Of a DNA stretch of 64,000 nucleotides, positions 4,579 to 60,141 are shown piece after piece. The stretch is from contig NC_085857.1 in assembly GCF_034702125.1 (NCBI RefSeq), positions 55,682,714-55,746,713 on the forward strand, read 5' to 3'. Numbering within the stretch: the stretch's first letter is position 1; each line of letters opens with the position of its first letter. The translations under genes were made by a program, and so were the position numbers. Under the pieces are notes generated by a model. That model was not told where the DNA came from. It did no database searches and saw only the letters and a list, made by a program, of their open reading frames with translations. This DNA comes from Engraulis encrasicolus (lineage: Eukaryota; Chordata; Actinopteri; Clupeiformes; Engraulidae).

Positions 4579-4609
4579 CCACACCCCATTGGAACCCATC
4601 TGATCATGG
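4579..4609 (+). CDS. ZNF1 exon 2: 31-nt start-codon microexon
   Basis: Acceptor CAG ends at 4578 and donor GTAAGT starts at 4610. The ATG is 4606-4608 followed by one coding G, so the exon gives four coding bases. The context GATCATGG has A at -3 and G at +4, a strong initiation context. The structure recurs at ZNF2, ZNF4 and ZNF5 and is mutated in ZNF3. Confidence 0.75.
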
Positions 4610-7600
4610 GTAAGTCTGGAGTGGTGTGATGGTTTTCAAATGTATGGCACTACTACTGCTACTAATACTGCTACTACTGATACTGATGCAACTCCTACTG
4701 ACACTACTGCTACTGCTACTACTTCTTTAAAAACTATGTTGAAACAATAGCCTGGTTTTCACCAGACGGAGTGTGTGTAGCTTCGGTGCCCCCTGGAGGA
4801 GCAGAGCTACACATACTACCGTCTGGTACACAGCCATGGAGCACGCCATGGTATCAGCCATGAATGCTCCGTCTATTTTCTGGCTGAAACGATGGCGTGC
4901 TCTATGGCTGTGTACCAGACAGTAGTGTGTGTAACTCTGCTCCACCAGGGGGTGCCGAAGCTACACACACACTGTCTGGTGTGAACCAGGCTAGAATTAC
5001 AACACTGCTTTCTCACTAAATATGGTGCAAAGACGTTCTCTCTGTGTTCACTCACATTGTATTGGCATTTTATTTATAGATTTGAATTGTGGCTTGAAGG
5101 AAGAAGAATTTGAAGAGGATATTTGTCCAAGACAGGAAATAAAAAGGGAAGAAGAGCCTCATGACATCAAACAGGAAGACTCTACAGGTACAAGACGCAT
5201 ATGGAGCAGCAGATGGGAAACAGGGCGACCATGAATATGCAACAGAATATGCAGACAAGGACTTTCATTAGATTTCATAGCACGTTAGAAGTGTGCACGC
5301 TGTGAAATTATGGTAAACTCACCGAAAGTAGTTTTGGACAACGGGATGTCTGGCTATCCATTTATTTTCTTCCTGGTTTGTGAATGCACTTGGCTATACA
5401 GAGGGAATTGGCTACAGTTACCACAGCTAAAATCTACAGTCCAACCTCAATATTCAATTGCCTATAATTCACAAGACTAGTGAGTAATGAGTAACTGGTA
5501 TCGTTTTGACGAGGACTCCTTTGCTTGTGTTATTAACCATGGTGTGAAAGCCTGGCCATTTTGGTCACGTGGCCACTCAGGGCGACTGCGACTGTCCACC
5601 TACTGTACCAACGGTACAGAACTCTGCTAGATGTATACGCGCACCAAACCAGTACCTTCACCCCCGCCAACTTTCACTATGAAGCCAGAACAGTCTGTAG
5701 TGTAAAGACAGCTAATGAGTAACCCTGGGCACTGTGCCGCTGGCCCTTGTACATGTAGATAGTCCGGCCCTGAGCCTAAGAACATGTTTGTGTGTCAATT
5801 TGCTCATTCTTTTGCACTCTTTACAACACTGTTTGTATTTTTGGTTTGTACTAGACTTGAATCAGAACATAAAAGAGGAAGGAGTGCCTAGTGTTCTGGA
5901 ACATGGAGGAGCGTCTAGTGTTCTAGAACATGTAGGAGGAGCCTCACCTGTGAAGGAGGTCAAACTAGAGGACACCACTAATCTACACGACGATTCCACA
6001 GGTACGTTTAATTACAGACCAATCACAAGTAGAGTAAGCCCACGATTTTCACCATAGTTCACCCGGGTCTGGGCCAGATCAACCCCGGGTCTGGGCCAGC
6101 TCAGTCACAAACTTACTGCACTGCCTCTTGAAGGTTACAATTGAAAGAAATTACCCTTTTTAAGTACCACTAGTTAGCTGCCAGCAAAGCTCAAACAATT
6201 TGCCTTCATTTGTGTGTAGACTAGCTACAGCTACTGCTAAACCAATTTGAAGTCGCTACACATTGTTTGCAATCAAATGTGGGCCATTACTTTCAAAAAC
6301 AAGGCAGAGAACTTTGTAAATATTTTATTTACCGGCTCTGATACCGTCCTTCCCTTGTAGTCTACCTAACAATCTCTGATGCCACCCTCGTAGTGTCTGG
6401 AGCCCGGAGAATCAGACTGAGGGGGTGGGGCATGGCACGCTTCTTCCTAGCGCCTGGGGTACGATGTCAAAATAAGAGTGCACAGCGCGATCGGACAAAA
6501 AAAACAAGTTTTTTTGAATGCGCATCGAACGTCTAATTTATAATCGTAGGAAATGTTGACATCGCGATTAAAATTGAAATCGAAAAATCGTCCAGTCCTA
6601 GGGGGAATGAAGTTGCAGAGGACATTAAGTTCAGAGCCTATGTTGTCCCATCATGCACTGCACTTTTTGAAGCAAATTTTCTCCAACACAAGACACAAAC
6701 AGCAATCACTCCTTGTAACATGTTACATTTTAATCATATTCTGCTTTTGCTATAGGGATTTTACTATGAAAAGTGGTACATGAAAAAAGCCATCTCCAAA
6801 GTAAAAAGCAAAGTAAATTTCGCAATTATCTCGTGAAGTCGCTGCGATACGACTACCAGAGGGGCCCCATTTCTCCCGCTCTAGGGCCCAGATAAAGGGT
6901 TAATTGCCCCGCCCGCCCTGAGAGACTCGGCTATTGGGCCCGGGGCGGCAGCCCTTTCAGGCCCTGCGCTCACTCCGCTACTGCTGAAGACATCTCGATT
7001 TCAGTTCCAATTTTAGAAAAAAGTTGACAGGGTTGTGACATAAACAACTAAACAGTTGCATAATATGAATAATTATTCAAACAAAACTGTTTTGGTAATT
7101 GTTTTGTTTTGTCGTTGCAGGGGATCCACAAAGGAAGCAATTAAGGACAATGTGCAAAACTTGTGGGAAGACCTTTACTGAAAGGCAACATATCAAATTA
7201 CACCAGACAACTGACAGACCTTTTAGCTGTACAAAATGTGGGATGCCATTTAAAGACATAAATGATTTAAGAATGCACCAGAAAACTCACATTGTGAAGA
7301 AGCCTTTTGAGTCTATGACAAGTGTAGAGGTCATTGGAACAGATGGTTTCACGTCATATCAGTGTACTACATGTGGAGAGGTCTTTTCATCCAGATGCAA
7401 TCTCCAAATTCACCAGACAAGTCAGTGTACTACATGTGGAGAATCCTTTTCATGCAGCTGGAAACTCAAAATGCACCAGAGAACCCATCCTTTCCAGTGT
7501 AGCACATGCGGAAAGGGATTTAAAGACAAAAGCAATTTAAACATACATCTGAGATACCATACAGGGGAAAGGCCTTACCAGTGCAACACATGTGGAAAGA

Positions 7601-7737
7601 CCTTTGGAAAACGTTCTGTTCTCAATCGCCATAAGAAAATCCATACGGGAGAAAAACCATACCAATGCACTACATGTGGAAAGAGGTTTGGCCGGCGTAG
7701 TCATCTCAATCGCCATCAGAGAAACCATACTAGATAA
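4606..7737 (+). CDS. ZNF1: type I C2H2 zinc-finger protein, 291 aa, C-terminally truncated
   Basis: Predicted join 4606-4609, 5080-5187, 5855-6001, 7121-7737, all phase 1, giving 291 aa. Residues 2-37 (exon 3) and 38-86 (exon 4) are acidic and carry psi-K-x-E motifs at K8, K23, K32, K44 and K74; zinc fingers run from residue 98. Seven finger units are visible, five with full C2H2 ligands; unit 1 (CKTC...) and unit 3 (CTTCGEVF, running straight into the next CTTC) lack the second His. Likely a nuclear DNA-binding regulator, by family. The stop at 7735 is a GAA-to-TAA type change in a linker that reads GGAGAA in ZNF3, and relic fingers follow. The LINE at 1-3650 has removed or displaced the usual promoter, so expression is uncertain. 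Confidence 0.75.
4748..4993 (+). mobile_element. Palindromic MITE (TAGCCTGGT...ACCAGGCTA) in ZNF1 intron 2
   Basis: Near-perfect inverted repeat of about 246 bp, starting TAGCCTGGTTTTCACCAGAC and ending in its reverse complement. It has no coding capacity and looks like a fold-back non-autonomous DNA element. The superfamily cannot be assigned from its ends. Confidence 0.75.
5080..5187 (+). CDS. ZNF1 exon 3: 36-aa acidic, SUMO-motif-rich cassette
   Basis: 108 nt, bounded by TATAG and GTACAAG, phase 1 to phase 1. It encodes [11 protein letters not shown]... to ...[17 protein letters not shown] and IKQE all fit psi-K-x-E. The same exon is present in all five gene copies with few substitutions, so it is under constraint or recently duplicated. 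It resembles no classical KRAB, SCAN or BTB domain. Confidence 0.78.
5188..5854 (+). other. ZNF1 intron 3, no recognised element
   Basis: Phase-1 intron of 667 bp between the two DLN exons. No open frame with recognisable content, transposon ends or simple repeats were seen. Confidence 0.5.
5855..6001 (+). CDS. ZNF1 exon 4: DLN...DST cassette with internal VLEH repeat
   Basis: 147 nt (49 codons), acceptor CTAG ending 5854, donor GTACG at 6002, phase 1 to phase 1. It starts DLNQNIKEE and ends DDST, mirroring exon 3 (DLNCGLKEE to EDST), which suggests exon duplication. Two copies of SVLEH-x-GGAS lie in the middle. IKEE and VKLE are psi-K-x-E motifs. No equivalent is visible in ZNF2, ZNF3 or ZNF5. 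Confidence 0.65.
6820..7120 (+). other. Intron 4 block shared by ZNF1 and ZNF3
   Basis: GC-rich sequence (GTCGCTGCGATACGACTACC near 6838, GGGCCCGGGGCGGCAGCCC near 6937) continuing to the exon 5 acceptor. A close copy lies at about 32945-33233 before ZNF3 exon 5 but not before the exon 5 of ZNF2 or ZNF5. It shows that ZNF1 and ZNF3 are sister copies. Confidence 0.7.
7121..7737 (+). CDS. ZNF1 exon 5: zinc-finger exon, type I
   Basis: Acceptor TTGCAG ends at 7120; the split codon restores Gly and the frame reads GDPQRKQLRTM. Fingers follow the C-X2-C-X12-H-X3-H pattern with HTGE(R/K)PYQC linkers. Relative to ZNF3, about 48 nt are missing just after MCKT, creating a new CKTCGKTF start. The last finger ends HTR then TAA. 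Confidence 0.85.
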
Positions 7738-20339: not shown

Positions 20340-20465
20340 TGTAGTATTTGGCTTGGTATTCAAATAATATCGGAACACTCTGTAAACTACAAGGAAAGAA
20401 TATGGCAACGTTTCGTCACTTCCCTTCATTAGGACCGTGCAAAGGGCGGCTGTAAACAAATCCAG
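20340..20465 (+). promoter_or_regulatory. Conserved upstream block of ZNF2 (candidate promoter)
   Basis: ATTCAAATAATATCGGAA, CTGTAAACTACAAG, CGTCACTTCCCTTCA and GGCTGTAAACAAA occur in the same order before exon 1 of ZNF4 (38.67-38.79 kb) and ZNF5 (52.49-52.62 kb). No TATA box seen. CGGAA/CTTCC words are ETS-like, but this is only suggestive. Confidence 0.55.
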
Positions 20466-20517
20466 CAACAACATCGGGGACGAACGCATCATTAAATCCT
20501 CACTGTGGACTTTCGTG
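20466..20517 (+). other. ZNF2 exon 1 (non-coding)
   Basis: Homologous to ZNF1, ZNF4 and ZNF5 exon 1, ending ACTTTCGTG before donor GTGAGC at 20518. The 5' limit is not known. Confidence 0.6.
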
Positions 20518-21242: not shown

Positions 21243-21268
21243 CTAAACAGCTAATCAGCTGATCATGG
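21243..21268 (+). CDS. ZNF2 exon 2: 26-nt start-codon microexon
   Basis: Acceptor TTGCAG ends 21242, ATG 21265-21267, then one G and donor GTAAGT at 21269. Same GATCATGG context as ZNF1, ZNF4 and ZNF5, five nt shorter on the 5' side. Confidence 0.75.
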
Positions 21269-24200
21269 GTAAGTCTGGAGTGATCTGATGGTTTTCAAAG
21301 TACAGTGATTGCAATGAGCCATTTATGTCTATGTAGTCCTTCAGATTAGCTGGGCTTGTCAAATAGGCCGAATACACCTAAATAGAGTCTTGCTTGCGGA
21401 GAACGTAGTAGCCTAGTAGTCATTGATGATGATTTGGTGTATTTAGTCGATTCTTAGTTCTGTAAAGTGTAGTTATTTAAAAACTAATGTTTAACGACAA
21501 CACTGTTTTCTCACTGTATATGCTATGACATTCTTTCTGTGTTAACTCACTTTGTCTTGATATTTGATCTGCAGATTTGAATTGGGGCTTGAAGGAAGAA
21601 GACTTTGAAGAGGATATTCATCCAAGACAGGAAATAAAAAGGGAAGAAGACCATCATGACATCAAACAGGAAGACTCTACAGGTACATTTTTTTGCATGT
21701 ACAATTCCACATTAATTGGTAAGCCGTAAGAAGAGACTTGACTTCATTGAATGTTTATGAATAGAGAGTTTAAAATCCATATGTTCACTCAACAAATTTC
21801 ATTTTATATGTCCATGAAGCTAATGACAGGTTGACTTGTCTTTCTGTTTTGGACTATTGTCATGTTGGGATGCCCAAACAGTGTCCCATGTGTGTGACGG
21901 AGGTCATCTTGCACCTGTTCACCCCCCTCGGGGATCGAACGTGCGACCTCGTCAACTACAAAGATTCGGCAATGGGAGACACAGTACGATACCGCTGGGC
22001 CAAGAGACTAGTCTCTCGGCCCAACGGCACGAGACTGTATGAGGCTATCGGAGGGAGGTTTACCAACGTTCCACGCCAACTCTGTGCTAGTTAGCCTCCG
22101 TTACACTCTCCCCCTTAAACCTCACTCCCATCCCGGGTCAGCGGCACCACTGTGACGGAGGTCATCTTGCACCTGTTCACCCCCCTCGGGGATCGAACGT
22201 GCGACCTCGTCAACTACAACGATTCGGCAATGGGAGACACAGTACGATACCGCTGGGCCAAGAGACTAGTCTCTCGGCCCAACGGCACGAGACTGTATGA
22301 GGCTATCGGAGGGAGGTTTACCAACGTTCCACGCCAACTCTGTGCTAGTTAGCCTCCATTACATGTGCAGCTTCAAGTCTGATGAGTTTCAAATTTCCTC
22401 CAGTATTTTTCACAAGTTAATGTATTCATTGTTCTATGAGAATGGACCAAAAGTACAGTGCATTTGTAACTCATGTGTCCCCAAAACTTCAGTGGTCCAT
22501 CACCATGTCTCACAGACAAGATGGTGTGACTTTCACCATAGGCCATGTTGACTGTTCTCCAAATGAAGTGTTAATAATGGCTGAAAAGGCCCTGCCATGA
22601 CGGTAGGGCTCTGAGTTACTACGCCCTGGTTCAATTCCGGCCCTCTCCATCTCTCCATCTCTACTCGTTTCCTGTCTCTCCTCCACTATCCTGTGGCAAA
22701 GGGAAAAAGCCCTATACAGTGGCGCTCATATGTTTACATACCCCAGCAGAATAGACGCTTTCTCTGCGATATCTCACGAAATATGACGGATTACACAAAA
22801 CCTTTTTTTTCACTCATTGCTAGTGACTGGCTTAAGATATTTATTAGCATTATTCTGTGTTTACTCTTTCAAAAGCATGATCACAACCCAAACTACCCGA
22901 ATGACCCTGTTCAAAAGTTTACGTACCCTAGTTTCTGATGCTGAATATGACCCTGCTTAACATCAAGGACCGCTCTAAATTGTTTGTGGTAGTTGTGGAT
23001 AAGGCTCTTAATGTTCTCAGATGACAAAACAGCACATTCTTCCTGGCAGAATGGTTGTTTCCTATAACATCTTTGGGTGTCTTGCTGGAACCTCACATTT
23101 GAGGTTTCCCCTGAGTGGCTCAATGATGTTGAGATCAGGAGAGTGAGATGGTCGCTCAAAAACCTTCATTTTATTCTTTCTGAAGCTAATGATGGGTTGA
23201 TTTGGCTTTCTGTGTCGAAATATTGCCATGTTGGCACTGTTGGAATTTCAATTCAGAAATGCAATATGAGGGGTTTGGTTGGAATCAAGCCATTGGGCAA
23301 GGGAATCATTGCATTGCAATGATCATTGCAAGGGAAGTTGTTCAGGAGGCATAGGACAACCAAAAAATAACTTCAGGTGAAATGTAGGACAACATGAAAA
23401 AATGTTTTAAACTGTACAGGAAAGAGGCACTTGAGGAAAGATGGGCTGTTGGGGGTTGCCAGGAGAAAGCCATTACTACAAAAATGCAAACATGTTATTT
23501 TGCATATGATACACCAAATAGCATAGTGAGAAGCATCAGAATGCATCTGGCAAAGTCATTTGGAAAAATTAGATCAATATGGAACTTTTTTCAGCCACTA
23601 TTAACAGTACCATTTGGAGAACAGTCAACGGAGCCTATGATGAAAGTTACACCATCCCTTCTGTGAAACATGGTTATGGACCACTGATGTCATGATGTCA
23701 CATTTGAGTTACAAATGCACTACACTTTTGGTCCATACTCACAGAATGATGAATACATTGCCCCGTGAAAAATACTGGAGGAAACTTGACACTCATCAGC
23801 CTTGAATCTGCACATGGTTCATTGTTGGACATGCCAACATGACAATATTTCAGCACAAAAGCCAAATCAACCCGTCATTAGCTTCAGAAAGAATAAAATG
23901 AAGTTTTTGTGCGACCGTCTCACTCTTCTGATCTCAACATCATTGAGCCACTCAGGGGAAACCTCAAATGTGAGGTTCCAGCAAGACACCCAAAGGTATT
24001 ATAGGAAACAACCATTCTGCCAGGAAGAATGTGCTGTTTTGTCATCAGAGAACATTAAGAGCCTTATCCACAACTACCACAAACAATTTAGAGCGGCCCC
24101 TGATGTTAAACAGGGCCATATTCAGCATCAGAAACTAGGGTATATAAACTTTTGAACAGGGTCATTTGGGTAGTTTGGGTTGTGATCATGCTTTTGAAAG

Positions 24201-27200
24201 AGTAAACACAGAATACTGCTAATAAATATCTTAAGCCAGTCACTAGCAATGAGTGAAAAAAAAGGTTTTGTGTAATCCTTCATATTTTGAGAGAAATCGA
24301 CAAGAAAGCGTATATTCTGCTGGGGTATGTAAACATATGATCACCATATAGTATAACTGTATATGCATATATATAAAAATAAATAATAATGGCTGAAAAA
24401 ATGGCGGCCTTCATGGCCGTGAACCTGCCACCTTGTCAACACATCGGGTTTGACATTGGGAGGCACAGTAATAGACCACAGAGCAAAAGGGCCGGTCCGA
24501 TAGCCCTACGCTACCGCACTGTATGGAGGCTTCGGGAGGGAGGTTTTACTAACATTCCACGCCACACTTTGCTAGTTGTCCACCGTTACATATTTGCACC
24601 AGCTTAACAACTCTACTGTAGTCTTCAGGCTAGTCTGAGCTCTGCTTAAATTTTCTACAGCAGCAGAGATCTCCATAACATTAGAAGAGGAGGAGGAGAT
24701 GAAGTGGGAGGATGAGGAGGAGGATGAGGGGGATGGAGGAATGTGGACTTCTAGGGACAGCGCAGAGGAACCTCACCAACATGTCTCTACTCGTACAAGT
24801 ACGTCTTAAACGTTTTCTTTTCTTCAGAAATGATTAAATCATCACGTCTTCTCTCATGTAGACGGAATAAGCAGGTAATTAGATAAATTAGAAACAAGCA
24901 GAGGTGGCAAAAGTGAAAGTAAAAAAATAAATACAGTTTCAACACGAGTAACTTATGTGAGTCTTACGACCAGTTGACTCTGCGCTGTTTGGATATGTGT
25001 TGGGTTCGGCAAGAGTCAAATGAAAACTGAAATTAAAGTCTGCGACCTAAAGCTCCCGTTTCTCTTATTTGAATGTGACGTTTCGGGCAGCATGCCTTTC
25101 ATCAGTCATGATGTTGTCTGATAAAGGGCATGCTGCCCGAAACATCAAATTCAAATAAGAGAAATGGGAGCTTGGTGTCACAGACTTTATTTTCAGTTTT
25201 CATTTGACCTTGCTAGTCCTGCACCCAATCTTTTTCAGACAGAAGTGCACATTTTTTCTTTGTTACACAAAACGACAAGAGTCATACACTAAGGAGGAAG
25301 GGAGTCCCACACAGGATCTGATTGCAATTGGGGGTCCAAGCCCAACATGTTTTTTTTTCAAATTGGGAACACTGATGATGAGATAGATTCCTGAAATAGT
25401 TGTCCTACTTTGTCTTTGGCTTTCATATTTTTATTTTCAGCATGTTCAGTACAATATTTCCTGAACTGCATCCAGCTCCTGCTCTGTGCGACTCCCTTTC
25501 TCCTCAGTGTGGGCCATTGTCCTTTCTCCTCTGTGTATAAAGTATAGGCCCATAGTCCTTTCTCCTCAGTGTACCCTTTGAGGAGTAAGGACTTTTCCCA
25601 GTTCTTTTAGAATTTCACTTGAACACTCTACAGCTCCCATAGAACTCTGCTTAAAAATGCTGCAAAGTCCTTGTGACATCATATTAACTATATTTTTTTT
25701 AACTTTTTTTTTTTTTTTTTTTTTTACAAAATTCCAATCACATATTTGTAATGTTACTCCTCAAAGGGTTAAGTATAGGACCATTGTCCTTTCATCTCAG
25801 TGTATTAATTATACAGCAGGCCTCTTGTCCTTTCTCCTCAGTGTATTAAGTACAGGTCCATTGTCCTGTACTAAGCATCAGATGTTCTACCCTTTCATGT
25901 GTAGGTCTTTCAAGCTGATTCTAATTCTACTTTTCGTGTGATCAAACAATTTCAGTCTTTGATTTGTGTACCCAAGCAGACCCTTTCATTACTTAAGCCA
26001 AATAATCAGCAGAGGAATTTGATTTATCAATGGTTTTAGTAACTAGTAACTGTATAACTTGTCGTTACAGGGGGTCTACAAAGGATACCGTCAAACAAAA
26101 TGCGCAAAACTTTAGAGAAAAGAAGAGGACAACTGTCTTATGATTATTCTGAGTATGGAAGGATTTTTATTGAAATGCAACCTATCAAAGCACACCAGAG
26201 AACGGTCAAACCTTTCAAGTGCATGAAGTGTTGGACACCGTTTAAATATAAATGTAATTTATTGGTACATCAAAAAACTCACATTTTGAAGAAGCCTTTT
26301 AAGTCTATAACAAGTAGAAAGGCCATTGGAGCACATAGTTTCAAGCCATGTCAGTGCACTACATGTGAAAAGTCATTCGCATGCAGATGGACCCACAAAA
26401 TTCACCAGAGAATTCATACTGTAGAAAAACCTTATCAGTGTAGCATTTGTGGAAAAGCCTTTGTAGCCAAACTTGATCTCCAAAAGCATCAGCGAACCCA
26501 TACTAGAGAAAGGTCTTACCAGTGTAGCTGTGAGAAGGACTTTGCAGACCGGTCTAATTTTAGAAGGCATCAGAGAACCCATACTGGAGAGAAGTCTTAC
26601 CAGTGTAGCATATGTGAGAAGGACTTTGCAGACCCGTCTAATTTTAGAAGACATCAGAAAACTCATACTGGAATAAAACCTCACCAGTGTAGTACATGCG
26701 GAAAGAACTTTGCCTTCATATCGTATCTCAAAATTCACCAGAGATTTCACTCTGGAGAAAAGCCTTACCAGTGTAGCATATGTGGAAAAGCCTTTGCAAC
26801 CATACTTGGTCTCCAAAAGCATCAACGAACCCATACTGGAGAGAGGCCTTACCAGTGTAGCATATGTGAGAAGGACTTTGCAGACCTGTCTCATTTTAGA
26901 AGGCATCAGAGAATTCATACTGGATTAAAACCTCACCAGTGTAGTACATGCGGAAAGAACTTCGCACTCATATCGTATCTCAAAATTCATCAGAGAACTC
27001 ATACTAGAGAAAAGCGATATCCTTGTACTTACCAGTGCAGGACATGTGAAAACTCCTTTTTACACAAAAGCCAGCTAGACTGCCATCAGAGAACCCATCC
27101 AGGGGAAAAACCATACCAGTGTAGCATATGCGAAAAAGGCTTTACACAGTCAAGATACGTAAAGGATCATATGATAACTCATTCTGGAGAAAAGCCTTAC

Positions 27201-30925: not shown

Positions 30926-30948
30926 TTTCTTAACTCAGCTGATCCTGG
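30926..30948 (+). pseudogene. ZNF3 exon 2 remnant: start codon and donor lost
   Basis: Aligns with GATCATGG|GTAAGTCTGGAGTG of the other copies but reads GATCCTGG followed by CTGAGTCTGGAGTG: ATG became CTG and the donor GT became CT. No substitute start microexon seen nearby. Confidence 0.7.
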
Positions 30949-31122
30949 CTGAGTCTGGAGTGCAGGGCTTGACATTCACTGGCCACAGTGGCTAGTGGTT
31001 TTCACAAGTCACTAGCCACTCAGGCTTTCTACTAGACACAGATTTACTCACAGTTGTTTTCCTGCTAAACAAAGAGGATTAGTGATATGAACACATCATG
31101 CCTGCATGTAAAATTGACACCA

Positions 31123-31752: not shown

Positions 31753-31860
31753 ATTTGAATTGTGGCTTGAAAGAAGAAAAATTTGAAGAAGATATTTGTC
31801 CAAGACGGGAAATAAAAAGGGAAGAAGAGACTCATGACATCAAACAGGAAGATTCTACAG
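31753..31860 (+). CDS. ZNF3 exon 3: DLN...DST cassette
   Basis: 108 nt, acceptor TTTTAG, donor GTACAAG. Reads [11 protein letters not shown] to DIKQEDST; the three psi-K-x-E sites are retained despite loss of the start exon, which suggests recent inactivation or use of another start. Confidence 0.7.
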
Positions 31861-33233: not shown

Positions 33234-34237
33234 GGGATCCACAAAGGAAGCAATTAAGGACAATGTGCAAAACTTTGGAGAAAAGAAGAGGAAAACCATC
33301 CTATGGTTATTCTGAGCGTAGAAAGACCTTTACTGAAAGGCAACATATCAAATTACACCATACAACTAACAGACCTTTTAGCTGTACAAAATGTGGGATG
33401 CCATTCAAAGACATAAATGATTTAAGAATGCACCAGAAAACTCACATTGTGAAGAAGCCTTTTGAGTCTATGACAAGTGTAGAGGTCATCGGAACAGATG
33501 GTTTCACGTCATATCAGTGTACTACATGCGGAGAAGTCTTTTCATCCAGATGCAATCTCCAAATTCACCAGAGAGGTCAGTGTATTACATGTGGAGAATC
33601 CTTTTCATGCAGCTGGAAACTCAAAATGCACCAGAGAACCCATAGTTTCCAGTGTAACACATGCGGAAAGGGATTTAAAGACAAAAGCAATCTAGACCAA
33701 CATCAGAGATACCATACAGGGGAAAGGCCTTACCAGTGTGGCGTATGTGGAAAGAGCTTCAGAAAACCTGGTATTCTCAATCGCCATCAGAAAATCCACA
33801 CTGAGAGAAATCTATACACATGTAAAACGTCTGGAAAGGTTTTTGCAGAGAAAGTGAATCTTCAAAGTCATCAGATAATCCATAGTGGAGGAATGCCATA
33901 TCAATGTGCTAAATGTGGAAGAGGTTTTGCACATGAAAGTAGATTAAAACTTCACCTATTAATCCATACTGGAGAAAAACCATACCAGTGCACTACATGT
34001 GGAAAGAGGTTTGGCTGGCGTAGTCATCTCAATCGCCATCAGAGAATCCATACTGGAGAAAGGCCTTTCCAGTGTAGCACATGTGGAAATTCCTTTGTAC
34101 ACAAAACCTGTCTTAACCGCCATCAGAGAACCCACACAGAAAAAGCTCTTACCAGTGTAATGGAGGAAAACCTGACCAGTGCACCACCTGTGGAAATGGC
34201 TTTACAAAGTCAACTCAACTCAAAGATCACCAGATAA
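33234..34237 (+). CDS. ZNF3 exon 5: zinc-finger exon, type I
   Basis: Acceptor TTGCAG ends 33233; reads GDPQRKQLRTMCKTLEKRRG, so the LEKRRG lead-in shared with ZNF2 and ZNF5 is kept (absent from ZNF1). Finger-like units run to CSTCGNSF; then a frameshift near 34143 replaces the next finger by ALTSVMEENL and a stop at 34235. Confidence 0.8.
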
Positions 34238-38669: not shown

Positions 38670-38790
38670 TACCGGAATAGGCCTACTCTCGTGCTCAAAT
38701 CTCTATGATGATGCTCTGTGTAAACCACAAGACCCAGACTGCAATTCGTCACTTCCCTTCACCCGTGGAGAGGGCAGCTGTAAACAAACC
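38670..38790 (+). promoter_or_regulatory. Conserved upstream block of ZNF4 (candidate promoter)
   Basis: TTAAAATAATACCGGAATAG, TGTAAACCACAAG, CGTCACTTCCCTTCA and CAGCTGTAAACAAAC, as in ZNF2 and ZNF5. Confidence 0.5.
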
Positions 38791-38834
38791 AGCCACATCG
38801 GACGACCAAGCTGTAATCACTGTGGACTTTCGTG
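38791..38834 (+). other. ZNF4 exon 1 (non-coding)
   Basis: CCACATCGG to ACTTTCGTG, donor GTGAGA at 38835. The 5' limit is unknown. Confidence 0.6.
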
Positions 38835-43028: not shown

Positions 43029-43059
43029 TTAAACACATTTGGAACCCATCCGATCATGG
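43029..43059 (+). CDS. ZNF4 exon 2: start-codon microexon
   Basis: Acceptor TTGCAG ends 43028, ATG 43056-43058, then G and donor GTAAGT. 31 nt. Confidence 0.75.
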
Positions 43060-46000
43060 GTAAGTCTGGAGTGGTGTGATGGTTTTCAAAATACAGCAAT
43101 TGCAATGAGCCCTTAATGTAGCATGTTATGTTGTCCTTCAGGTAAGCTGGGCCTGACAAATAGGCCGAATACACCTAAATAGAGTCTTGCTTGCGGGTCA
43201 TTCCATGTCAATTCACATGATTCCCTAGAATCTCCCCAGGTGACCCTCTCCGATTTACCCGATATCTCACATACAGGTACCTTTTGATGTCAATTGAAAG
43301 AATACCAAGTATTAGCACCCTACGTCTAACGGTTGCGTAGATGAAGCCCTCCAAAGTTGGGGTGCCATGCCCACTTTTCAAGCCTGTGAATTGCATACAA
43401 AATTTACAAGCAGATTTTGACACCTCTGGTTTTAGTTTGAAGGAAGATACAGGCCTAAAAATCACCACGGCCCCTCAATATGACCCTGTCTACCAGATGA
43501 TGTGCTTACAAATAGCATGCCTTGATTATTTTTGGCTATATTAAGCCTTAAAAACTGAGTTTGTGGAAAGCGTGATGAAGAGTCTTGCCATTTTGGGGTT
43601 CCAGATCTTGGAAACTATGTATGCTTTGGGAGTTATAATTGATTTTCCATCATATTTGGGAACTGTGCAGTGTATTCCAAAAACATTAGGGCGCTCAGAC
43701 TTTAAATGATAGAATCGGAGGGACTCAAAAACAGCTTTTGGACAAAATGACCTTACAGTACCCTCTACTTCAGGCCTCAAATTAACCATGTGGGCACTTG
43801 ATGACAGGAACCCCCTTTTAACCCCATGTACAGTAGCACTGTATCATACATTCAAGCTTGGAAAAACTTCGTTTTTCAAAGTTTTTTGTATTAATCTTGG
43901 CCTTCAAAGTACATGTTTTTCTCTATATCTTATCAGTGTCTGTTTTGTCTGCTGCCATCTGCTGGTCTAAAAAAGCAACAACAGCGTAATGTAAGAAAAC
44001 AAAAGGGGCTGGAAAATCTTGCCCATAATATACCAAAAAAGCACTGTAATTATACAGTATATTGCTATATACTAATTATGATGCTATATACTAAGCATGA
44101 TGAATATTTCTAGTTTAAATAATTTCTTAAGTGTGACTGCTTAATGCTCAATCATGATGCCAATCCCAAGATGGCCTCGACCCTGCACTACATTTCTACC
44201 ATGGGGGTGGGGGTGTCCTGGTAGAAATGTAATCATGATTGAGCATTCTGCATAATGCTTGTTAAAATCATAATTAATATATAGCAATATACTGTAGAAT
44301 TGAAGTCCTTTATTGGTAAGCTAGCGAGCTTAACCCCTAGGGGGGTCTAGATTTCTAGGCTACTTTATTGGTAAATTATGGGCAAGATTTTCCAGCCCTT
44401 TTGCTTTCTTACATTATGCTGTTGTTACGTTTTTTGACCAGCAGATGGCAGCAGACAAAACAGACACTGTGATAAGACATAGACAAAAACATAAACTTTG
44501 AAGGCCAAGATTAATATGAAGAACTTTGAAAAACAAAGTTTTTCCAAGCTTGAATGTTTGATACAGTGCTACTGTACATAGGATTAAAATGGCGTTCCAG
44601 TTATCAAGTGCCCACATGGTTAATTTGAGACCTGAAGTAGAGGGTACCATGAGGTCATTTTGTCTAAAGGCTGTTTTTGAGTCCCTCCAATTCCATCATT
44701 AAAAGTCTGAGTGACCTAATTTTTTTTGGAATACACTGTACAGTTCCCAAATATGATGGAAAATCAATTATAACTCCCAAAGCATACATAGTTTCCAAGA
44801 TCTGGAACCCCAAAATGGCAAGACTTTTCAACACACATTTCACAAAGTCAGTTTTTAAGGCTTAATATAGCCAAACATAATCAAGGCATGCTATTTGTAA
44901 GTACATCATCTGGTAGACAGGATCATATTGAGGGGCCGTGGTGATTTTTAGGCCTGTATCTTCCTTGAAACTAAAACTAGCGGTCTCCAAATCTGCTTGT
45001 AAATTTGGTGTGCAATTCCTGGGCTGGAAAAGTGGGCATGGCACCCCAACTTTGGAGGGCTTCATCTCCGCAACCGTTAGACGTAGGGTGCTAATACTTG
45101 GTATTCTTTCAATTGACATCAAAAGGTACCTGTATGTGAGATATCGGGTAAATCGGAGAGGGTCATGTGGGGAAGGCGTGTGAATTGACATGGAATGACC
45201 CTTGCATAGAACGTAGTAGTGGTCATTTAGTGATGATGATGATTTGGTTTATTTAGTGTATTCTGAATTCTGTAAAGTGTAAAGTGTAGTTATTTTAAAA
45301 CTATATTGAGTGACAACACAGCTTTCTCGCTATAGGCTATATGATGCAAAGACGTTCTTTCTGTTTTAACTCGCATTGTATTGATTTTTGGCTTGTAGAT
45401 TTGAATTGTGGCTTGAAGGAAGAAGAATTTGAAGAGAATATTTTCCTGAGACAGGAAATAAAAAGGGAAACAGATCGTCATGACATCAAACAGGAAGACT
45501 CTACAGGTACAAAACAACAACAACACATAATTTGTTTGCATTTAGAGTTCCACATTAATTGCTAAGTCGTAAGAAGAAGCCTTCTTGAGAAGGGTCCAGC
45601 TGCAGTAAAACAGTCCCACCCTTAATGCAAGCACGCCCATGGGCGTTCCCGGCATTTGCCGTATTGGCCAATCGTGAAGGGATACTGCATGATGTCATTT
45701 TCAAGGCCATTTCCGGATGAAGGCTCCATGTTTTCAAAGATATCCCGTGCAAATTGTTATCTTCCAGAGAAACGTTTCACTGAACATTCCACTGACATAA
45801 TATTCTCAACAATTTATGTAAGAAAGTGAGATAAATCACACGTTTTCTAATCCCAATATGTATTTTGCTTTGTCTTCCCGTACCTCGGGCATTGTAGCCT
45901 TCTGTTTAGAACTCGTGTCGCTATGCACAGATTTGTCATAACGTATCAGGTCGCCAAAATGCTTTGATTTCAACACAACGTTGACACATTGACAGTATAT

Positions 46001-48797: not shown

Positions 48798-50019
48798 AGG
48801 CGAGATACAGGTTATATGGCACATTAGGAGGCATGGGTATTGTTGCACTCTAGATGTTTAGAAATAAGTAGGTGCGTGGACCCAAAAAGTAGAGTTCAAT
48901 GTGGGAGTACACTAAATAAGACACTGAGGTCAAGTCACTGCTCTCTGATGGCAGCAACCTGAAACATCTGCTCTACTCTGCTCTGAGAAAAATAAAACAA
49001 AAAATCTGCTTGTGCTTGACCTTAGTGTCTTATTTAGTGTGTGAACCTGCTCCCACATTGAACTATATGGCACATTTAAAATCAGACCTAGGGTAGGGTG
49101 GGGTAAATGATTTGTTAGCGATTTCTCGTACAATATGAATAATTACACAAAACCTGTTTTTCATTCTTTGCTTGTGACTGGCTGAAGACATTTATTAGAA
49201 ATAGCCTGTGTTTACTCTTTCAAATCATAATCACTACTACACAAATGACCCAAATCAAAAGTTTATGCACCCTTATTTCTGACGCTGTAGGCCTATGTTG
49301 TCTCCTTTAGCATCAATGACCTCTTGAAATCGTTTGTGGTTGTCTTAATCTTCTCAGATGGCAAAACAGCCCATTCTTCCTGGCAAAAACCTTACGTTTG
49401 AGGTTTCCACTGTGGTACTCAGTGATGTTGAGATCCGGAGAGTGAGGTGGTCACTCAACAACCTACATTTTATTTATTCCTGAAGCTTATGACAGGTTGA
49501 CCTGGCTTTCTGTTTTGGATTATTGTCATGTTGGGATGCCCAAACAATATCCCATGTGCAGCTTCAAGGCTGATGAGTGTCAAATTTCCTCCGGTATTTT
49601 TCACATGTTAATATATTCATTGTTTTATGAGTATGGACCAAAGTACAGTGCCTTTGTAACTCGTATGTCCCCAAACCATCAGTGGTCCATCACCATGTCT
49701 CACACACAGGATGGTGTAACTTTCATCATGGGCCATGTTGACTGTTCTCCAAATGTAAATGTGGCTTAAAAAAGTTGATCTAATTTTAGGATAAGCGACA
49801 CAACGTCTGGGAAGGACTGTATAATTGATGTATGCACCAGCTTAACAACTCAACTGTAGTCGTCTGACTGGATCTATTTTTCTACAGCAGCGGAGATCTC
49901 CACGTCATTAGAAGAAGAGGAGGAGCAGGAGCAGCAGCAGGAGCAGGAGGATCACCGAGAAATATGGATTTCAGAGGACAGTGAAGAGGAATCTCACCGA
50001 CATATCCCAACTCGTACAA
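43056..50019 (+). CDS. ZNF4: zinc-finger gene, N-terminal exons only (exon 5 missing at assembly gap)
   Basis: Join 43056-43059, 45399-45506, 49888-50019 gives M plus 36 and 44 residues, ending at the same phase 1 as ZNF5. Intron 4 sequence continues past the point equivalent to 58.1 kb in ZNF5 and stops at the N gap (51264). The zinc-finger exon is therefore absent from the assembly, not shown to be absent from the genome. Exons 3 and 4 equal those of ZNF5 by eye. Introns 1, 2 and 3 carry the large insertions that distinguish segment A. Confidence 0.65.
43195..45201 (+). mobile_element. 2.0-kb near-complete palindrome, 4-bp TSD TTGC, segment A only
   Basis: GGGTCATTCCATGTCAATTC left, inverse right; arms of about 900 bp mirror around a short centre near 44.1-44.3 kb. 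TTGC at 43191-43194 and 45202-45205; segment B has the uninterrupted site at 55441. No transposase. The open frames inside are mirror images and not genes. Superfamily uncertain (4-bp TSDs occur in several). Confidence 0.82.
45399..45506 (+). CDS. ZNF4 exon 3: DLN...DST cassette
   Basis: 108 nt, acceptor TTGTAG, donor GTACAA. Reads [35 protein letters not shown]; all three psi-K-x-E sites present. Confidence 0.75.
47110..47480 (-). pseudogene. LINE RT C-terminal fragment, minus strand
   Basis: Minus-strand frames read KKAQTLLHFLRRM, LTTFYRGVIESILTSSLSVW, VVRTAEKLIRSPLP and NDFFPQAIRLLNALKKTT then a stop: the C-terminal part of an L2/Rex1-like reverse transcriptase broken by frameshifts and a deletion. 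Confidence 0.7.
47500..48700 (-). repeat. Duplicated exon-like GT-AG blocks, minus strand
   Basis: On the minus strand, two blocks ending at about 47802 and 48566 are preceded by TGCAG/CGCAG and followed by GTGAGG/GTAAGG. They read related peptides (VMGNQHQDQGRSQG, LHPQPPIFLLFT and VMDQDSSGPP, LHPQPPFLSFT). A second pair upstream of each shares CAGTTTTC(A/T)GA(A/G)GG. This looks like a tandemly duplicated, decayed two-exon fragment. Host gene not identified. Confidence 0.4.
48706..48795 (+). repeat. (CA)n microsatellite
   Basis: Pure CA run of about 90 bp. Confidence 0.95.
48893..49064 (+). mobile_element. Fold-back MITE (AGTTCAATGTGGGAG...CTCCCACATTGAACT-like)
   Basis: AGTTCAATGTGGGAG with ACTAAATAAGACACT on the left; AGTGTCTTATTTAGTGT with TCCCACATTGAACT on the right. 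About 172 bp. Confidence 0.6.
49109..49770 (+). mobile_element. Relic Tc1-like half element in ZNF4 intron 3
   Basis: Same family as 22717-24348; its left TIR was removed by the 45584-49108 block. The embedded 90-codon frame is not a gene. Confidence 0.6.
49888..50019 (+). CDS. ZNF4 exon 4: E/Q-rich acidic segment (type II)
   Basis: 132 nt (44 codons), acceptor TTCTACAG, donor GTACGT. Reads [20 protein letters not shown], then [16 protein letters not shown] and RHIPTRT. Identical by eye to ZNF5 exon 4. Confidence 0.72.
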
Positions 50020-50167
50020 GTACGTTTTGAAAGTTTTATATCTTCAGAAACTGTTAAATCACCTCCTCTACTTTCATGTAGACAGAATAAGCAGTTCATT
50101 TGAGTTAAATTGGAAACAAGCAGAGGTGGCAAAAGTTAAAAAAAAAAAAATGCAGTTTTCTTCCAAT

Positions 50168-52489: not shown

Positions 52490-52617
52490 AAAATAATACC
52501 GGAATAGGCCTACTCTCATGCTCAAACTCTATGGTGATGCTCTGTGTAAACCACAAGACCCAGACTGCAATTCGTCACTTCCCTTCACCCGTGGAGAGGG
52601 CAGCTGTAAACAAACCA
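52490..52617 (+). promoter_or_regulatory. Conserved upstream block of ZNF5 (candidate promoter)
   Basis: Same ordered words as the ZNF2 and ZNF4 upstream blocks, next to exon 1. Confidence 0.5.
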
Positions 52618-52665
52618 GCCACATCGGACGACCAAAGCTGATTATAATCACTGTGGACTTTCTTG
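52618..52665 (+). other. ZNF5 exon 1 (non-coding)
   Basis: CCACATCGG to ACTTTCTTG, donor GTGAGA at 52666. No ATG. Confidence 0.6.
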
Positions 52666-55058: not shown

Positions 55059-55090
55059 GGCGTGCGTGCGTGCGTGCGTGCGTGCGCGCG

Positions 55091-55122
<32 letters not shown>

Positions 55123-55146
55123 TGCGCGCGTGTGTGTGTGTGTGTG
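55059..55146 (+). repeat. (CGTG)n/(TG)n microsatellite
   Basis: Interrupted form of the segment A TG array. Confidence 0.92.
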
Positions 55147-55278
55147 AAAAAAGACCATCATGTGTGCATGTGTAGGATGGGTAGTTGTAGATGTAAAACA
55201 TTTCGCTTTATGGCCTACTAGTATTTTTACTTAATGCCATAGCATGGTAACTAACCACTCTACTGTGTTCTGTTGCAG

Positions 55279-55309
55279 TTAAACACATTTTGAACCCATC
55301 CGATCATGG
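55279..55309 (+). CDS. ZNF5 exon 2: start-codon microexon
   Basis: Acceptor TTGCAG ends 55278, ATG 55306-55308, then G and donor GTAAGT. One substitution from ZNF4 in the exon (TTTTGAACCC versus TTTGGAACCC). Confidence 0.77.
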
Positions 55310-58300
55310 GTAAGTCTGGAGTGGTGTGATGGTTTTGAAAATACAGCAATTGCAATGAGCCCTTAATGTAGCATGTTATGTTGTCCTTCAGGTAAGCTGG
55401 GCCTGACAAATAGGCCGAATACACCTAAATAGAGTCTTGCTTGCGTAGAACGTAGTAGTGGTCATTTAGTGATGATGATGATTTGGTTTATTTAGTGTAT
55501 TCTGAATTTTGTAAAGTGTAGTTATTTTAAAACTATATTGAGTGACAACACAGCTTTCTCGCTATAGGCTATATGATGCAAAGACGTTCTTTCTGTTTTA
55601 ACTCGCATAGTATTGATTTTTGGCTTGTAGATTTGAATTGTGGCTTGAAGGAAGAAGAATTTGAAGAGAATATTTTCCTGAGACAGGAAATAAAAAGGGA
55701 AACAGATCGTCATGACATCAAACAGGAAGACTCTACAGGTACAAAACAACAACACATAATTTGTTTGCATTTAGAGTTCCACATTAATTGCTAAGTCGTA
55801 AGAAGAAGCCTAACTTCTTTGCCTTTTTGTGAATAGACAGAAAGTTTAAAAAAAGTTTAAAATCTACCGGTACAGTGGTGGTCATATGTTTACATACCCT
55901 GGCAGAATATATGCTTTGTTAGCGATTTCTCGTACAATATGAATAATTACACAAAACCTGTTTTTCATTCTTTGCTTGTGACTGGCTGAAGACATTTATT
56001 AGAAATAGCCTGTGTTTACTCTTTCAAATCATAATCACTACTACACAAATGACCCAAATCAAAAGTTTATGCACCCTTATTTCTGACGCTGTAGGCCTAT
56101 GTTGTCTCCTTTAGCATCAATGACCACTTGAAATCGTTTGTGGTTGTCTTAGTCTTCTCAGATGGCAAAACAGCCCATTCTTCCTGGCAAAAACCTTACG
56201 TTTGAGGTTTCCACTGTGGTGCCCAGTGATGTGGAGATCCGGAGAGTGAGGTGGTCACTCAACAACCTACATTTTATTTATTCCTGAAGCTTATGACAGG
56301 TTGACCTGGCTTTCTGTTTTGGATTATTGTCATGTTGGGATGCCCAAACAATATCCCATGTGCAGCTTCAAGGCTGATGAGTGTCAAATTTCCTCCGGTA
56401 TTTTTCACAAGTTAATATATTCATTGTTTTATGAGTATGGACCAAAGTACAGTGCCTTTGTAACTCGTATGTCCCCAAACCATCAGTGGTCCATCACCAT
56501 GTCTCACACACAGGATGGTGTAACTTTCATCATGGGCCATGTTGACTGTTCTCCAAATGTAAATGTGGCTTAAAAAAGTTGATCTAATTTTAGGATAAGC
56601 GACACAACGTCTGGGAAGGACTGTATAATTGATGTATGCACCAGCTTAACAACTCAACTGTAGTCGTCTGACTGGATCTATTTTTCTACAGCAGCGGAGA
56701 TCTCCACGTCATTAGAAGAAGAGGAGGAGCAGGAGCAGCAGCAGGAGCAGGAGGATCACCGAGAAATATGGATTTCAGAGGACAGTGAAGAGGAATCTCA
56801 CCGACATATCCCAACTCGTACAAGTACGTTTTGAAAGTTTTATATCTTCAGAAACTGTTAAATCACCTCCTCTACTCTCATGTAGACAGAATAAGCAGTT
56901 CATTTGAGTTAAATTGGAAACAAGCAGAGGTGGCAAAAGTTATAAAAAAAAAAAATGCAGTTTTCTTCCAATTAGGGGAGGGCGATATGGCAAAAATGTC
57001 ATATCACGTTTTGTTAACAAAATCTCCATTTTGATTTTTAAAAAATTGAACAAAAACAACCGTCATATACTTGCAATTTGCAATTTGCAGTTAGTAAAAT
57101 GTTAACACACTGATGACACTCATAAAGTGCACAATTGGAATACAATACTAAGTAAACATCACTCTGATACTGATACTGACATTGTCACTGCAAGACGATC
57201 TATACGATTTCTCCACTTTGGCAGATTCAAGACGATCTTGATATCACGATTCACGATTTAATGTCGTCATATCGCCCACCCCTACTTCCAATACAGGTAA
57301 CTTATGTGAGTAACCTGCGCACTTGTCTTACATGCAGTTGACTCTGCACTGGTTCGATTTGGGTTGGGTTGGGTTCAAAATAGTCTTTACAAAATATTAA
57401 TACACCCATTCACTGCAACACATTTTTTTAAAATTGCTGTAAGGAACAGTACTGCAAGGGAAGGACAGAACTTTTTCCAAACTCGAGCATTTCATGCTCT
57501 CCTTTAGAGAGGGAGCTTTGCCAAACATCTTGTAAGATAAATCAAGCCCGCACTTTTCTGGTATCCACGTGACGTCAAGTGAATGTAGATTTAGGAGACC
57601 CTCGGTTAAGAAACCTTTAGTAGACTTATGACTTGAGTTGAGAATAATTGAAGTTCTTGTTTAGAAAGCCTTTAGTAGTCCAAACGCCGGAAGGAAGGAA
57701 GACCATTTTCAGTCCATGCTCAATTTGGAAAAGTATGTAGTTACTGCACTTTGCCTTTGTAGGACATAATTGATGAGAGCAGTCTGTATGATGGGTGTTT
57801 GTGTACTTAACATCCGATGAAGTTAAAGCTGATGCCTGCTCCTCAGTCTGTCTTGGGAGAGTTTTGCTTGGTCTGTAATGGTAAGAGTCACATGAAAAAT
57901 GAAAATAAAGTCTGCGACACCAAGCTCCTGTTTCTCTCATTTTAATGTGACGTTTCGGGCAGCATGCCCTTCATCAGACATCATGACAGGTGCTTGGTGT
58001 TGCGGACATTATGTTCAATTTTCATTTGACTTTGTTAGTCCTGCACCCAATCTTTTTGAGATGGGTGTTTTTCAAGGAGTTCCCGATTTTTTTCGGAGCT
58101 CAGAAACAATATTTTTATTGCTCCTGGCCTGACTGAGTCCCACACATTTGATGAATGCAATTGGGGGCTCAAGCCCATCATCATTTTTTTCAAATTGGGA
58201 ACACTGATGATTGGATAGATTCCTGAAATGGTTGTATCTTACCTCGCCTTCCGGCTTTCATATTTTATTAGCTTTTTCAATATTTCCAGAACTGTATCCA

Positions 58301-60141
58301 GCTCCTCTGTATACGTATATGCCAATTGTCCTTTCTCCTCATTGTATTAAGTATACAGCAGGCCTCTTGTCCTTTCTCCTCAGTGTATTAAGTACAGGCC
58401 CATTGTCCTGTACTAAACATCAGATTTTCTACCCTTTGACATGTAGGTCTTTCAAGCTGATTCTAATTCTACTTTTTGTGTGGTAAATTTCAGTCTTCAA
58501 CTTCTGTGCCCAAGCATTCCCTTTTGTTACTTACGCCAATTAATCAGCAGGGTAGTTTATCAATGGTTTTAGTAACTAGTAACTGTATAACTTGTCGTTA
58601 CAGGGGGTCTACAAAGGATGCCATCAAACAAAACGTGCACAATTTTGGAGAAAAGAAGAGGACAACTATCGTATGATTATTCTGAGTATGGAAGGACTTT
58701 TATTGAAATGCAGCCTATCAAAGCACACCAGAGAAGGGTCAAACCGTTCAAGTGCATGAAATGTTGGACAGCGTTTAAATATAAATGTAATTTAATGCTA
58801 CACCAAAAAACTCACATTGTGAAGGAGCCTTTGGAGTATATGACAAGTAGAAAGGCGCTTGGAGCACATAGTTTTAAGCTATGTCAGTGTACTACATGTG
58901 GAAAGACATTCACATGCAGATGGACCCTCAAAATTCACCAGAGACTTCATATTGCAGAAAGGCCTTACCAGTGTAGCATTTATGGAATGGCCTTTGCAGC
59001 CAAACTTGGTCTACAAAAGCATCAGAAAACCCATGCTGGAGAAAAATCTTACCAGTGCACCATATGTGGAAAGGGCTTTTCACAGTCAGGAAACTTAAAG
59101 TCTCATCAGAGAACCCATACTGGAGAAAAACCTTACCGGTGCAGCGTATGTGGACAGAGATTTACGCAGCAAAAAAGTCTAATTCGCCATCAGACAATCC
59201 ATACTGGGGAAAAACCTTACCAGTGCAGCACTTGTGGAAAGGCTTTCAGAGATAAGTGGCATCTAAAAGAACATCAGAGAACTCATACTGGAGAAAGGCC
59301 TTATCAGTGTAGCACATGTGGTAAGAGCTTTGCAAGGGCAACTCATCTCAACACTCACCACCAGACAACCCATGCAGGCGAAAGACCTCACCAGTGCACT
59401 ACATGTGGGAAGGCATTTCCAGACAAAAGTCGTCTCAAGCAGCATCAGAGAACCCACAGTGGAGAAAAGCCTTATCAGTGTACTACATGTGGGAAGGGAT
59501 TTGCAGTCAGATCTACTCTCAAAAGTCACCAGAAAACTCACAGTAACCGGTTTCCTTGTACTATATGTGGACAGGCCTGTTTATCCAGAAGTCATCTGGA
59601 CATGCATCTGAGAAATCACACTGGAGAAAGTCGTTACCAGTGTAGCACATGTGGAAAGGGATTTGAGGAAAAATGTAAGCTCAAAAGTCACCAGAGAACA
59701 CACACCGGTGAGAAACCTTATCAGTGCACCACATGTGGAAAAGCCTTTTCACAGAAATTTTATCTTACAAACCACCAGAAAACCCACTCAAGTGAGAAAT
59801 CTGATCAGTGTATCACTTGTGGAAAGTTTTTTGCATCAAAAGCTAATCTTGAAGCCCATAAGAGAAGTCATACAGGAGAAAAGCCATTTCTTTGTAGCAC
59901 GTGTGGAAAAGCATTTGCAGACAAGCGTAATCTAAGGGTTCACCTGAGAATCCATACTGGAGAAAAACCTTACGTGTGTAGCATATGTGGAAAGGGATTT
60001 GTCAAGAATAGTGATCTCAAAATCCATGACAGAATGCATACTGGAGAGAGACCATATCAGTGTAGCATATGTGGGAAGGCATTTACAAAGGCAGGTCACC
60101 TTAAGGCCCACCAGGGAACCCATACTGGAGAATATGTGTAA
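55306..60141 (+). CDS. ZNF5: type II C2H2 zinc-finger protein, 593 aa, intact
   Basis: Predicted join 55306-55309, 55631-55738, 56692-56823, 58604-60141, all phase 1, exactly 593 codons. Residues 2-37 are the DLN...DST cassette; 38-81 the E/Q-rich acidic segment; about 95-131 the [16 protein letters not shown] lead-in and a degenerate finger; fingers from 132 to near the C-terminus. Of 16 finger units 15 keep C2H2; unit 3 is CSIYG (Cys to Tyr), unit 7 has a four-residue His spacer, unit 10 lost its core Phe. Unlike ZNF2 there is no recent block duplication. Presumed nuclear DNA-binding regulator. Decayed linkers after the stop suggest a longer ancestor. Confidence 0.85.
55631..55738 (+). CDS. 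ZNF5 exon 3: DLN...DST cassette
   Basis: 108 nt, acceptor TTGTAG, donor GTACAA; identical by eye to ZNF4 exon 3. Confidence 0.78.
55875..56575 (+). mobile_element. Relic Tc1-like half element in ZNF5 intron 3
   Basis: Keeps the left TIR (CAGTGGTGGTCATATGTTTA) that segment A lost; then the same body as 49109-49770. No right TIR. Confidence 0.62.
56692..56823 (+). CDS. ZNF5 exon 4: E/Q-rich acidic segment (type II)
   Basis: 132 nt, acceptor TTCTACAG, donor GTACGT, phase 1 to phase 1. Confidence 0.75.
56973..57284 (+). mobile_element. hAT MITE (TAGGGGAGGGCGATATGGC), copy in segment B
   Basis: Same element and same CTTCCAAT target duplication (56965-56972, 57285-57292) as 50168-50484. Confidence 0.9.
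58604..60141 (+). CDS. ZNF5 exon 5: zinc-finger exon, 16 units
   Basis: Acceptor GTTACAG ends 58603; the split codon gives Arg, then [10 protein letters not shown]. Fingers to [17 protein letters not shown], then HTGEYV and TAA at 60139. Confidence 0.9.

Follow-up and report, generated by a model that had tools for sequence, protein, structure and literature searches.

What do the short exons in front of a zinc-finger array do, when the start codon stands in a tiny exon of its own and every coding exon that follows keeps the same phase? This question is raised by a tandem cluster of C2H2 zinc-finger genes in the European anchovy, Engraulis encrasicolus, whose 1.4 Gb genome has been annotated with the NCBI pipeline, with RNA-Seq among the evidence (PMC13403563). 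We have analyzed a window of 64,000 nucleotides (nt), C1:55682714-55746713, where C1 is contig NC_085857.1, with 60,269,354 of the 1,433,290,184 bases of the genome. The window contains five gene copies, called A to E. Three more copies, X2, X1 and Z, are found upstream in a wider survey of 341.6 kb of C1, about 93% of which has been read. All splice joins and proteins given here are predictions from the sequence. We suggest that these genes are of the repressor type, and that their symmetric N-terminal exons are arrays of acceptor sites for the small ubiquitin-like modifier (SUMO). Our probability for this reading is roughly 0.57.

The predicted gene structure itself may be accepted with high confidence: A start-codon microexon (exon 2) is followed by in-frame N-terminal cassettes (exons 3, 4a and 4b) and by a single finger exon (exon 5), with coding joins in phase 1. 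The original prediction had placed four start codons, at 4606, 21265, 43056 and 55306, in such microexons, and each of them does lie inside TTGCAG-(22 or 27 nt)-ATGGGTAAGT. The pattern TTGCAG-N(20-29)-ATGGGTRAGT has these four matches in the window and none in 100 shuffles. The 108-nt exon 3 of that prediction has AG/GT borders in all five copies of the window. Every modelled join is in phase 1, as had been proposed, and each intervening coding exon, after the microexon and before the finger exon, has a length divisible by three. Joining exons 2 (four coding bases), 3, 4 and 5 gives exactly the expected proteins of 291, 700 and 593 amino acids (aa) in A, B and E. The count of four copies has to be amended: There are four intact microexons, but five copies of exon 3, the fifth of which (gene C) has a decayed microexon. 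Likewise, the full chain of exons is found in three of the four (A, B, E), but gene D has no finger exon before a gap of 100 N at 51264-51363.

Gene A, on the forward strand like all other gene parts of the window, is given as an example. Its microexon of 31 nt (4579..4609) has the acceptor TTGCAG, the ATG at 4606, an end in ATGG and the donor GTAAGT. Exon 3 (5080..5187), located by tblastn and its splice borders, has 36 codons in phase 1-1 and three psi-K-x-E sites. Exon 4a (5855..6001) is an open exon of 147 nt, also in phase 1-1, with two such sites. The finger exon (7121..7737) has five canonical fingers by a strict pattern: A nonsense codon ends the array at 7737, with decayed fingers beyond it. 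Two of these exons can be compared with an anchovy protein named by NCBI, 'zinc finger protein 23-like isoform X2 [Engraulis encrasicolus]', which we call P0001. Exon 3 of gene A is 97% identical to it over 34 residues, and exon 4a is 51% identical to its second segment.

Genes Z, X1 and X2 have the same design, with joins of 589, 464 and 530 aa, all in phase 1. Together with B and E (700 and 593 aa), they form a set of five open joined proteins with 9 to 17 canonical fingers. Seven related microexons are found in the survey (X2, X1, Z, A, B, D and E), and one additional match to a loose pattern is unrelated. Around the microexon, an exact 21-mer is shared by five sites in the whole genome (1.43 Gb), all of them on C1 and within 76 kb. 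These counts understate the family, because the microexons of X1 and X2 differ from the 21-mer.

The evidence for SUMO-acceptor arrays comes from the lysines of the cassettes. In the six models of X1, X2, Z, A, B and E, 29 of the 35 N-terminal lysines stand in [VIL]-K-x-E, the SUMO consensus, versus none of the 262 lysines of the finger exons. There are 3 to 9 such sites in each modelled protein. The same is seen in P0001, where six of the seven N-terminal lysines are in the motif, versus one of 27 in the fingers. All lysines of exon 3 belong to it (LKEE, IKRE and IKQE) in genes A, B, E, X1 and Z, and gene C has one extra lysine. The motif exceeds what composition-matched chance would give: Of 5000 shuffles, 0 or 1 attain the count of the real sequence, in a test which covers the N-termini of A, B, E and P0001, plus exon 3 of A, B, C and E. 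Neither exon 3 of A nor the N-terminus of P0001 contains the reversed motif. When exon 3 of the five window copies and P0001 are compared, there are 11 variable columns, none of them among the 12 motif columns (P 0.004 if columns are independent). A further example is X2, whose exon 3 (C1:55563702-55564025) has grown to 324 nt through an in-frame tandem repeat of 54 nt, with 3.5 copies and 97% identity. Each unit of this minisatellite has one VKIEDS motif.

We propose that these genes work as follows. The microexon would supply the start (ATGG), the cassettes would act as flexible SUMO-acceptor arrays, and the fingers would pick the DNA target. The N-terminal psi-K-x-E lysines would be SUMOylated, and SUMO would then recruit the silencers SETDB1, Mi-2 and HP1. 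The model for this is Sp3, a C2H2 factor with a psi-K-x-E site outside its fingers, where SUMO on the lysine of IKEE has been described to recruit SETDB1, Mi-2 and HP1, with repressive marks such as H3K9me3 (PMC2978682). One acceptor site is described in that source, unlike the several putative acceptor motifs of the anchovy models. Since the introns which flank the cassettes are in the same phase, the number and length of cassettes can vary by exon duplication, loss or internal repeats, leaving the fingers undisturbed. Gene Z gives an example of the first: A tandem second exon 3 (exon 3', C1:55663653-55663760) has intact splice borders, which bears out the earlier suggestion that exons may be duplicated without frameshift. 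As to SUMO being the working principle of the cassettes, a proposal by analogy, we see the chances as evenly balanced.

The original prediction had one interchangeable exon 4, which is not what we find. There are two types, 4a and 4b, which have not been shown to be related. Type 4a alone is present in A and X1, and type 4b alone in Z, B, D, E and X2. In the survey, finger-exon matches with E >1e-20 and matches in ER or E7 runs were excluded. A second search for exon 4b, by DNA pattern and without that exclusion, gave five places. P0001 has exon 3, a 4a-like segment, a 4b-like segment and a finger exon of the DPQ type, in the same order as the cluster genes. Its residues at the joins fit phase 1: For example, DSTGT/AAEIS matches the end of exon 4a in X1, GGA ACA G/GT. 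Both types are thus carried in tandem by one protein, so they may be co-resident and are not alternatives. The nearest 4a to P0001 in the survey is that of X1, with 94% identity, and a search with the whole protein did not place P0001 itself in the 141.6 kb of C1 covered. Relatives of the N-terminus were looked for among 5.77 billion proteins, with restrictions on length and to the N-terminal region: A single match, P0001, was found among 88 candidates, and the same single match among 111. An AlphaFold model of P0001 from the single sequence was too poor to be used (mean predicted local distance difference test score of 40).

The finger exons begin with GDPQRKQ in A and X1, with GLQR in Z, B and E, and with GRAEKKQ in X2. 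Type 4a goes with GDPQRKQ and type 4b with GLQR, so the exon-4 type follows the lineage of the finger exon in five of the six intact models, X2 not being decisive. The cassettes themselves may be partly related. When exon 3 was compared with exon 4a, the score was attained by 0 to 1 and 0 to 4 of 2000 composition shuffles (two runs) and by 0 to 44 of 2000 motif-keeping shuffles, and the two exons look like the result of an old exon duplication. A similar relationship between exons 3 and 4b was considered and is unsupported, with shuffles reaching the score in 97 to 1043 of 2000 cases.

How the start codon is used is a separate matter. A conserved block with a common donor, [A/G]CTGTGGA[A/C]TTTC[G/T][C/T]G followed by GTGAG, is found on the 5' side of Z, A, B, D and E. 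This block is our candidate for a noncoding exon 1, which would probably make the microexon an internal one. In gene A its last 105 nt (3609..3713) end in CTGTGGACTTTCGCG, followed by GTGAGC. These last 105 nt have no ATG in A, B and E, and the ATG of the microexon would thus be the first one if exon 1 is no longer than that. This ATG is preceded by A at -3 and followed by G at +4 in all of Z, A, B, D and E, no in-frame ATG is found inside exon 3, and P0001 begins at the corresponding methionine. Skipping of the microexon in the models of A, B and E would leave as first ATG an out-of-frame one in exon 3, with a reading frame of 10 to 16 codons; proteins made from the next in-frame starts would lack exon 3. 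A start codon nearly alone in a short exon is also a feature of some human KRAB genes.

The finger exons are of the C2H2 Krueppel type, with tandem fingers and TGEKP-type linkers in one exon. Pfam PF00096 gives seven stretches in A and 17 in B, and the canonical fingers number 5 in A, 17 in B and 15 in E. Residues which contact DNA differ at 0.70-0.77, versus 0.41-0.47 at other finger positions (B, E and Z), as expected of finger arrays under changing target pressure. The N-terminus had been predicted not to be a classical KRAB, SCAN or BTB domain, in agreement with our Pfam scans: Neither these three nor another effector domain gave a match with E up to 1 in A and B (whole proteins) and in residues 1-174 of E; for X1, X2 and P0001 the N-termini were scanned with E up to 10, and again none was found. 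MACPF, CIAPIN1, DUF4820 and Cwf15 gave weak matches in the latter N-termini, below the curated cut-offs, and were discarded.

The original prediction left the relation to FiNZ open, and it is only partly clarified. The FiNZ zinc-finger genes of cyprinids are described as clustered and fast-changing C2H2 arrays, contained in one exon with a short glutamate-rich N-terminal exon upstream (PMC10547256), all of which resembles the anchovy genes. A FiNZ query returned 111 proteins, 84 of which have a FiNZ start by a simple pattern, and the 77 unique 28-mers were used. Their lysines stand in [VILMF]-K-x-E in 196 of 222 cases (175 of 222 with [VIL] only). In the finger regions, counted for the 43 proteins which have three fingers or more, 2 of 718 lysines do so. 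Shuffles give a mean of 16 and at most 33 for the [VILMF] motif. The two families are thus similar in their lysines. On the other hand, the sequences do not show a likeness greater than the shared lysine motif, in comparisons of low power at 28-36 residues, where a distant relation is still possible. Aligned with the 77 FiNZ 28-mers by hhalign, exon 3 has a global E of 0.46 (a forced 48% identity over 25 columns, with low power at this length), and the local alignment covers five columns with E 0.072. For one FiNZ sequence, motif-keeping shuffles of FiNZ or exon 3 reach the score in 2517 of 5000 and 736-888 of 2000 cases, about 37-50%. P0001 is absent from the 111 matches of the FiNZ search, and FiNZ proteins are absent from the N-terminal search for relatives.

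The gene layout is also different. FiNZ is described inside the first coding exon (PMC10547256, PMC11620358), with the fingers in the second, but the modelled anchovy start codon is alone in exon 2, with the cassettes in exons 3-4 and the fingers in exon 5; the FiNZ genes are moreover described as cyprinid-specific, and repression of transposable elements in embryos is one of their traits. The resemblance of exon 3 to FiNZ ends with the motif: The two families share their content, and common descent is not shown. Tetrapod KRAB zinc-finger genes are similar in other respects: Their effector exons are apart from the finger exon, they form clusters, and effector domains are reported to be gained and lost between relatives (PMC2443715). 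Unlike them, the anchovy genes have no KRAB match, and their cassettes are all symmetric in phase 1.

Several observations weigh against SUMO-acceptor arrays or against the use of the microexon. Exon 4b has no [VIL]KxE site in Z, B and E, so not every cassette fits, and exon 3' of gene Z has kept its frame and lost two of its three psi-K-x-E sites. The finger lysines are mostly found in the repeated linker TGEKP, which is unable to match the motif, and the paralogs are related, so their motif counts are not independent. Selection on exon 3 is mixed: Nonsynonymous change (dN) is below synonymous change (dS) in eight of ten pairs, the A-B pair is reversed (dN 0.069, dS 0), and D and E are identical. 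Genes A and C look damaged, and D is possibly an assembly duplicate. The exon-1 block was looked for at X1, X2 and C, and none was found. In Z, A, B and E there are also ATGs farther 5', at distances of 116 to 240 nt from the donor (123 and 174 nt in gene A, for example), which would be part of an exon 1 of more than about 115-150 nt. Their reading frames are short and stop before the main start, except for one of 70 codons in E, which is out of frame. Finally, TRIM33 is described to co-immunoprecipitate with FiNZ and KRAB-like proteins (PMC11603059), a different route.

This last result leads to another explanation of the cassettes, as acidic docking modules like those of FiNZ and fish KRAB-like proteins, which would bind TRIM33 or another TIF1. 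The lysine motif would then be a by-product of acidic, lysine-poor sequence. The cassettes are indeed strongly acidic, and glutamate enrichment is noted in FiNZ and KRAB (PMC10547256). However, composition-matched shuffles seldom or never reach the motif count. The absence of the reversed motif in exon 3 of A and the N-terminus of P0001 also disagrees with it, as does the lack of a KRAB match in Pfam, and we consider a docking module rather unlikely. The earlier idea that 4a and 4b are mutually exclusive, or swapped between finger arrays, would fit the presence of a single type in each cluster gene, and X2 does join 4b to a third type of finger-exon start. No exchange of N-terminal exons between finger arrays has been shown, though, and the order of P0001, with 4a and then 4b before a DPQ-type finger exon, speaks against it together with the link between exon-4 type and finger-exon lineage, about which X2 says little. 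Exclusive or swapped exons are thus quite improbable.

The microexon might also be unused, with translation beginning farther downstream, at an in-frame ATG of exon 4b or 5, and giving bare finger arrays. In-frame methionines are available at positions 97 (A), 51 (B), 87 (E) and 59 (Z), copy C has lost its microexon and kept exon 3 intact, and we have already mentioned the ATGs farther upstream in the putative exon 1. Against this, the upstream block, acceptor, ATG context and donor are all conserved, exon 3 is open in all five window copies, and P0001 starts at the corresponding methionine: There is only a slight chance that the microexon has no role. The last alternative is a cluster mostly made of decaying duplicates, with little function, as the early stop of A, the decayed microexon and frame loss of C and the missing finger exon of D might indicate. 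Nevertheless, B, E, Z, X1 and X2 are open, and change in the fingers of B, E and Z is concentrated at the positions which contact DNA, so a cluster in general decay is very improbable. SUMO-acceptor arrays are the explanation that we prefer.

Ray-finned fishes are described as lacking KRAB-ZNF and TRIM28 (PMC11603059). A broader and rather doubtful idea is that they have repeatedly built SUMO-array repressors: FiNZ in cyprinids and exons 3 and 4a in the anchovy would have converged on several psi-K-x-E sites, both recruiting silencers by SUMO. The anchovy microexon would then be an on/off joint, giving a protein with the array when it is included and a bare finger protein, without array, when it is skipped. 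How FiNZ proteins repress is an open question according to Wells et al. 2023 (PMC10547256). If the N-terminal modules of fishes are SUMO-acceptor arrays, changes from lysine to arginine would offer a test, and a single working principle would unite two families whose likeness is limited to a motif. Effector exons at the N-terminus are nothing new in C2H2 genes, and a lone ATG exon would be a modest curiosity by itself. Its combination with symmetric cassettes makes a clear case of effector change without disturbing the DNA-binding part. Our literature searches found no account of this N-terminal module, of a start-codon microexon within it or of its reading as SUMO consensus, and no paper combining SUMO, zinc finger and FiNZ.

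The other genes of the window are arranged as follows. In gene B, the last 105 nt of the putative noncoding exon 1 (20413..20517), with the conserved donor, are followed by a microexon of 26 nt (21243..21268, ATG at 21265), exon 3 (21575..21682), an acidic exon 4b of 138 nt (24661..24798) and the finger exon (26071..27923). The decayed microexon of gene C (30939..30962), CTGATCCTGGCTGAGTCTGGAGTG, has CTG in place of ATG and CT in place of the donor GT. It has three mismatches to the 24-mer and lies about 790 bases on the 5' side of exon 3, with a chance expectation of 0.00. Exon 3 of this gene (31753..31860) has intact splice borders, and neither exon 4a nor exon 4b has been found in it. Its finger exon (33234..34237) has seven canonical fingers, and the frame is lost close to the end.

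Genes D and E are very similar. Gene D has the last 105 nt of putative exon 1 at 38730..38834, with the conserved block and donor, a microexon of 31 nt at 43029..43059 (ATG at 43056), exon 3 at 45399..45506 and exon 4b at 49888..50019, the last two identical to those of E. The corresponding parts of gene E are 52561..52665 (also with block and donor), 55279..55309 (31 nt, ATG at 55306), 55631..55738 and 56692..56823 (132 nt), followed by the finger exon at 58604..60141. Near-identical blocks relate 42301-51201 to 54553-58001. The three longest have 95.7, 96.6 and 98.6% identity, a fourth one of 64 bases has 90.6%, and a block farther upstream has 88.3%. Relative to E, gene D has about 2 kb extra between microexon and exon 3. 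A recent duplication might explain gene D, and so might a haplotype left uncollapsed by the assembly. Between its putative exon 1 and its microexon, an inverted self-match of about 1.2 kb with 67% identity (39157-40346) forms a large imperfect palindrome or a transposon.

Rfam and tRNA scans of the window gave no matches. Between A and B there is a reverse transcriptase fragment at 15756-16989 (RVT_1, E 2.8e-19 in 15756-16382; no Pfam match in 16309-16989). Outside the window, two finger-exon reading frames with 7 and 18 canonical fingers, at C1:55633420-55634239 and 55635375-55636968, have no exon 3 assigned to them. Downstream of the window, a divergent exon-3-like exon is found at C1:55760688, with an exon-1-like block on its 5' side at 55757830. 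Another copy of exon 3 lies on the minus strand at C1:55451428, about 231 kb upstream, and also has an exon-1-like block on its 5' side, at 55452434.

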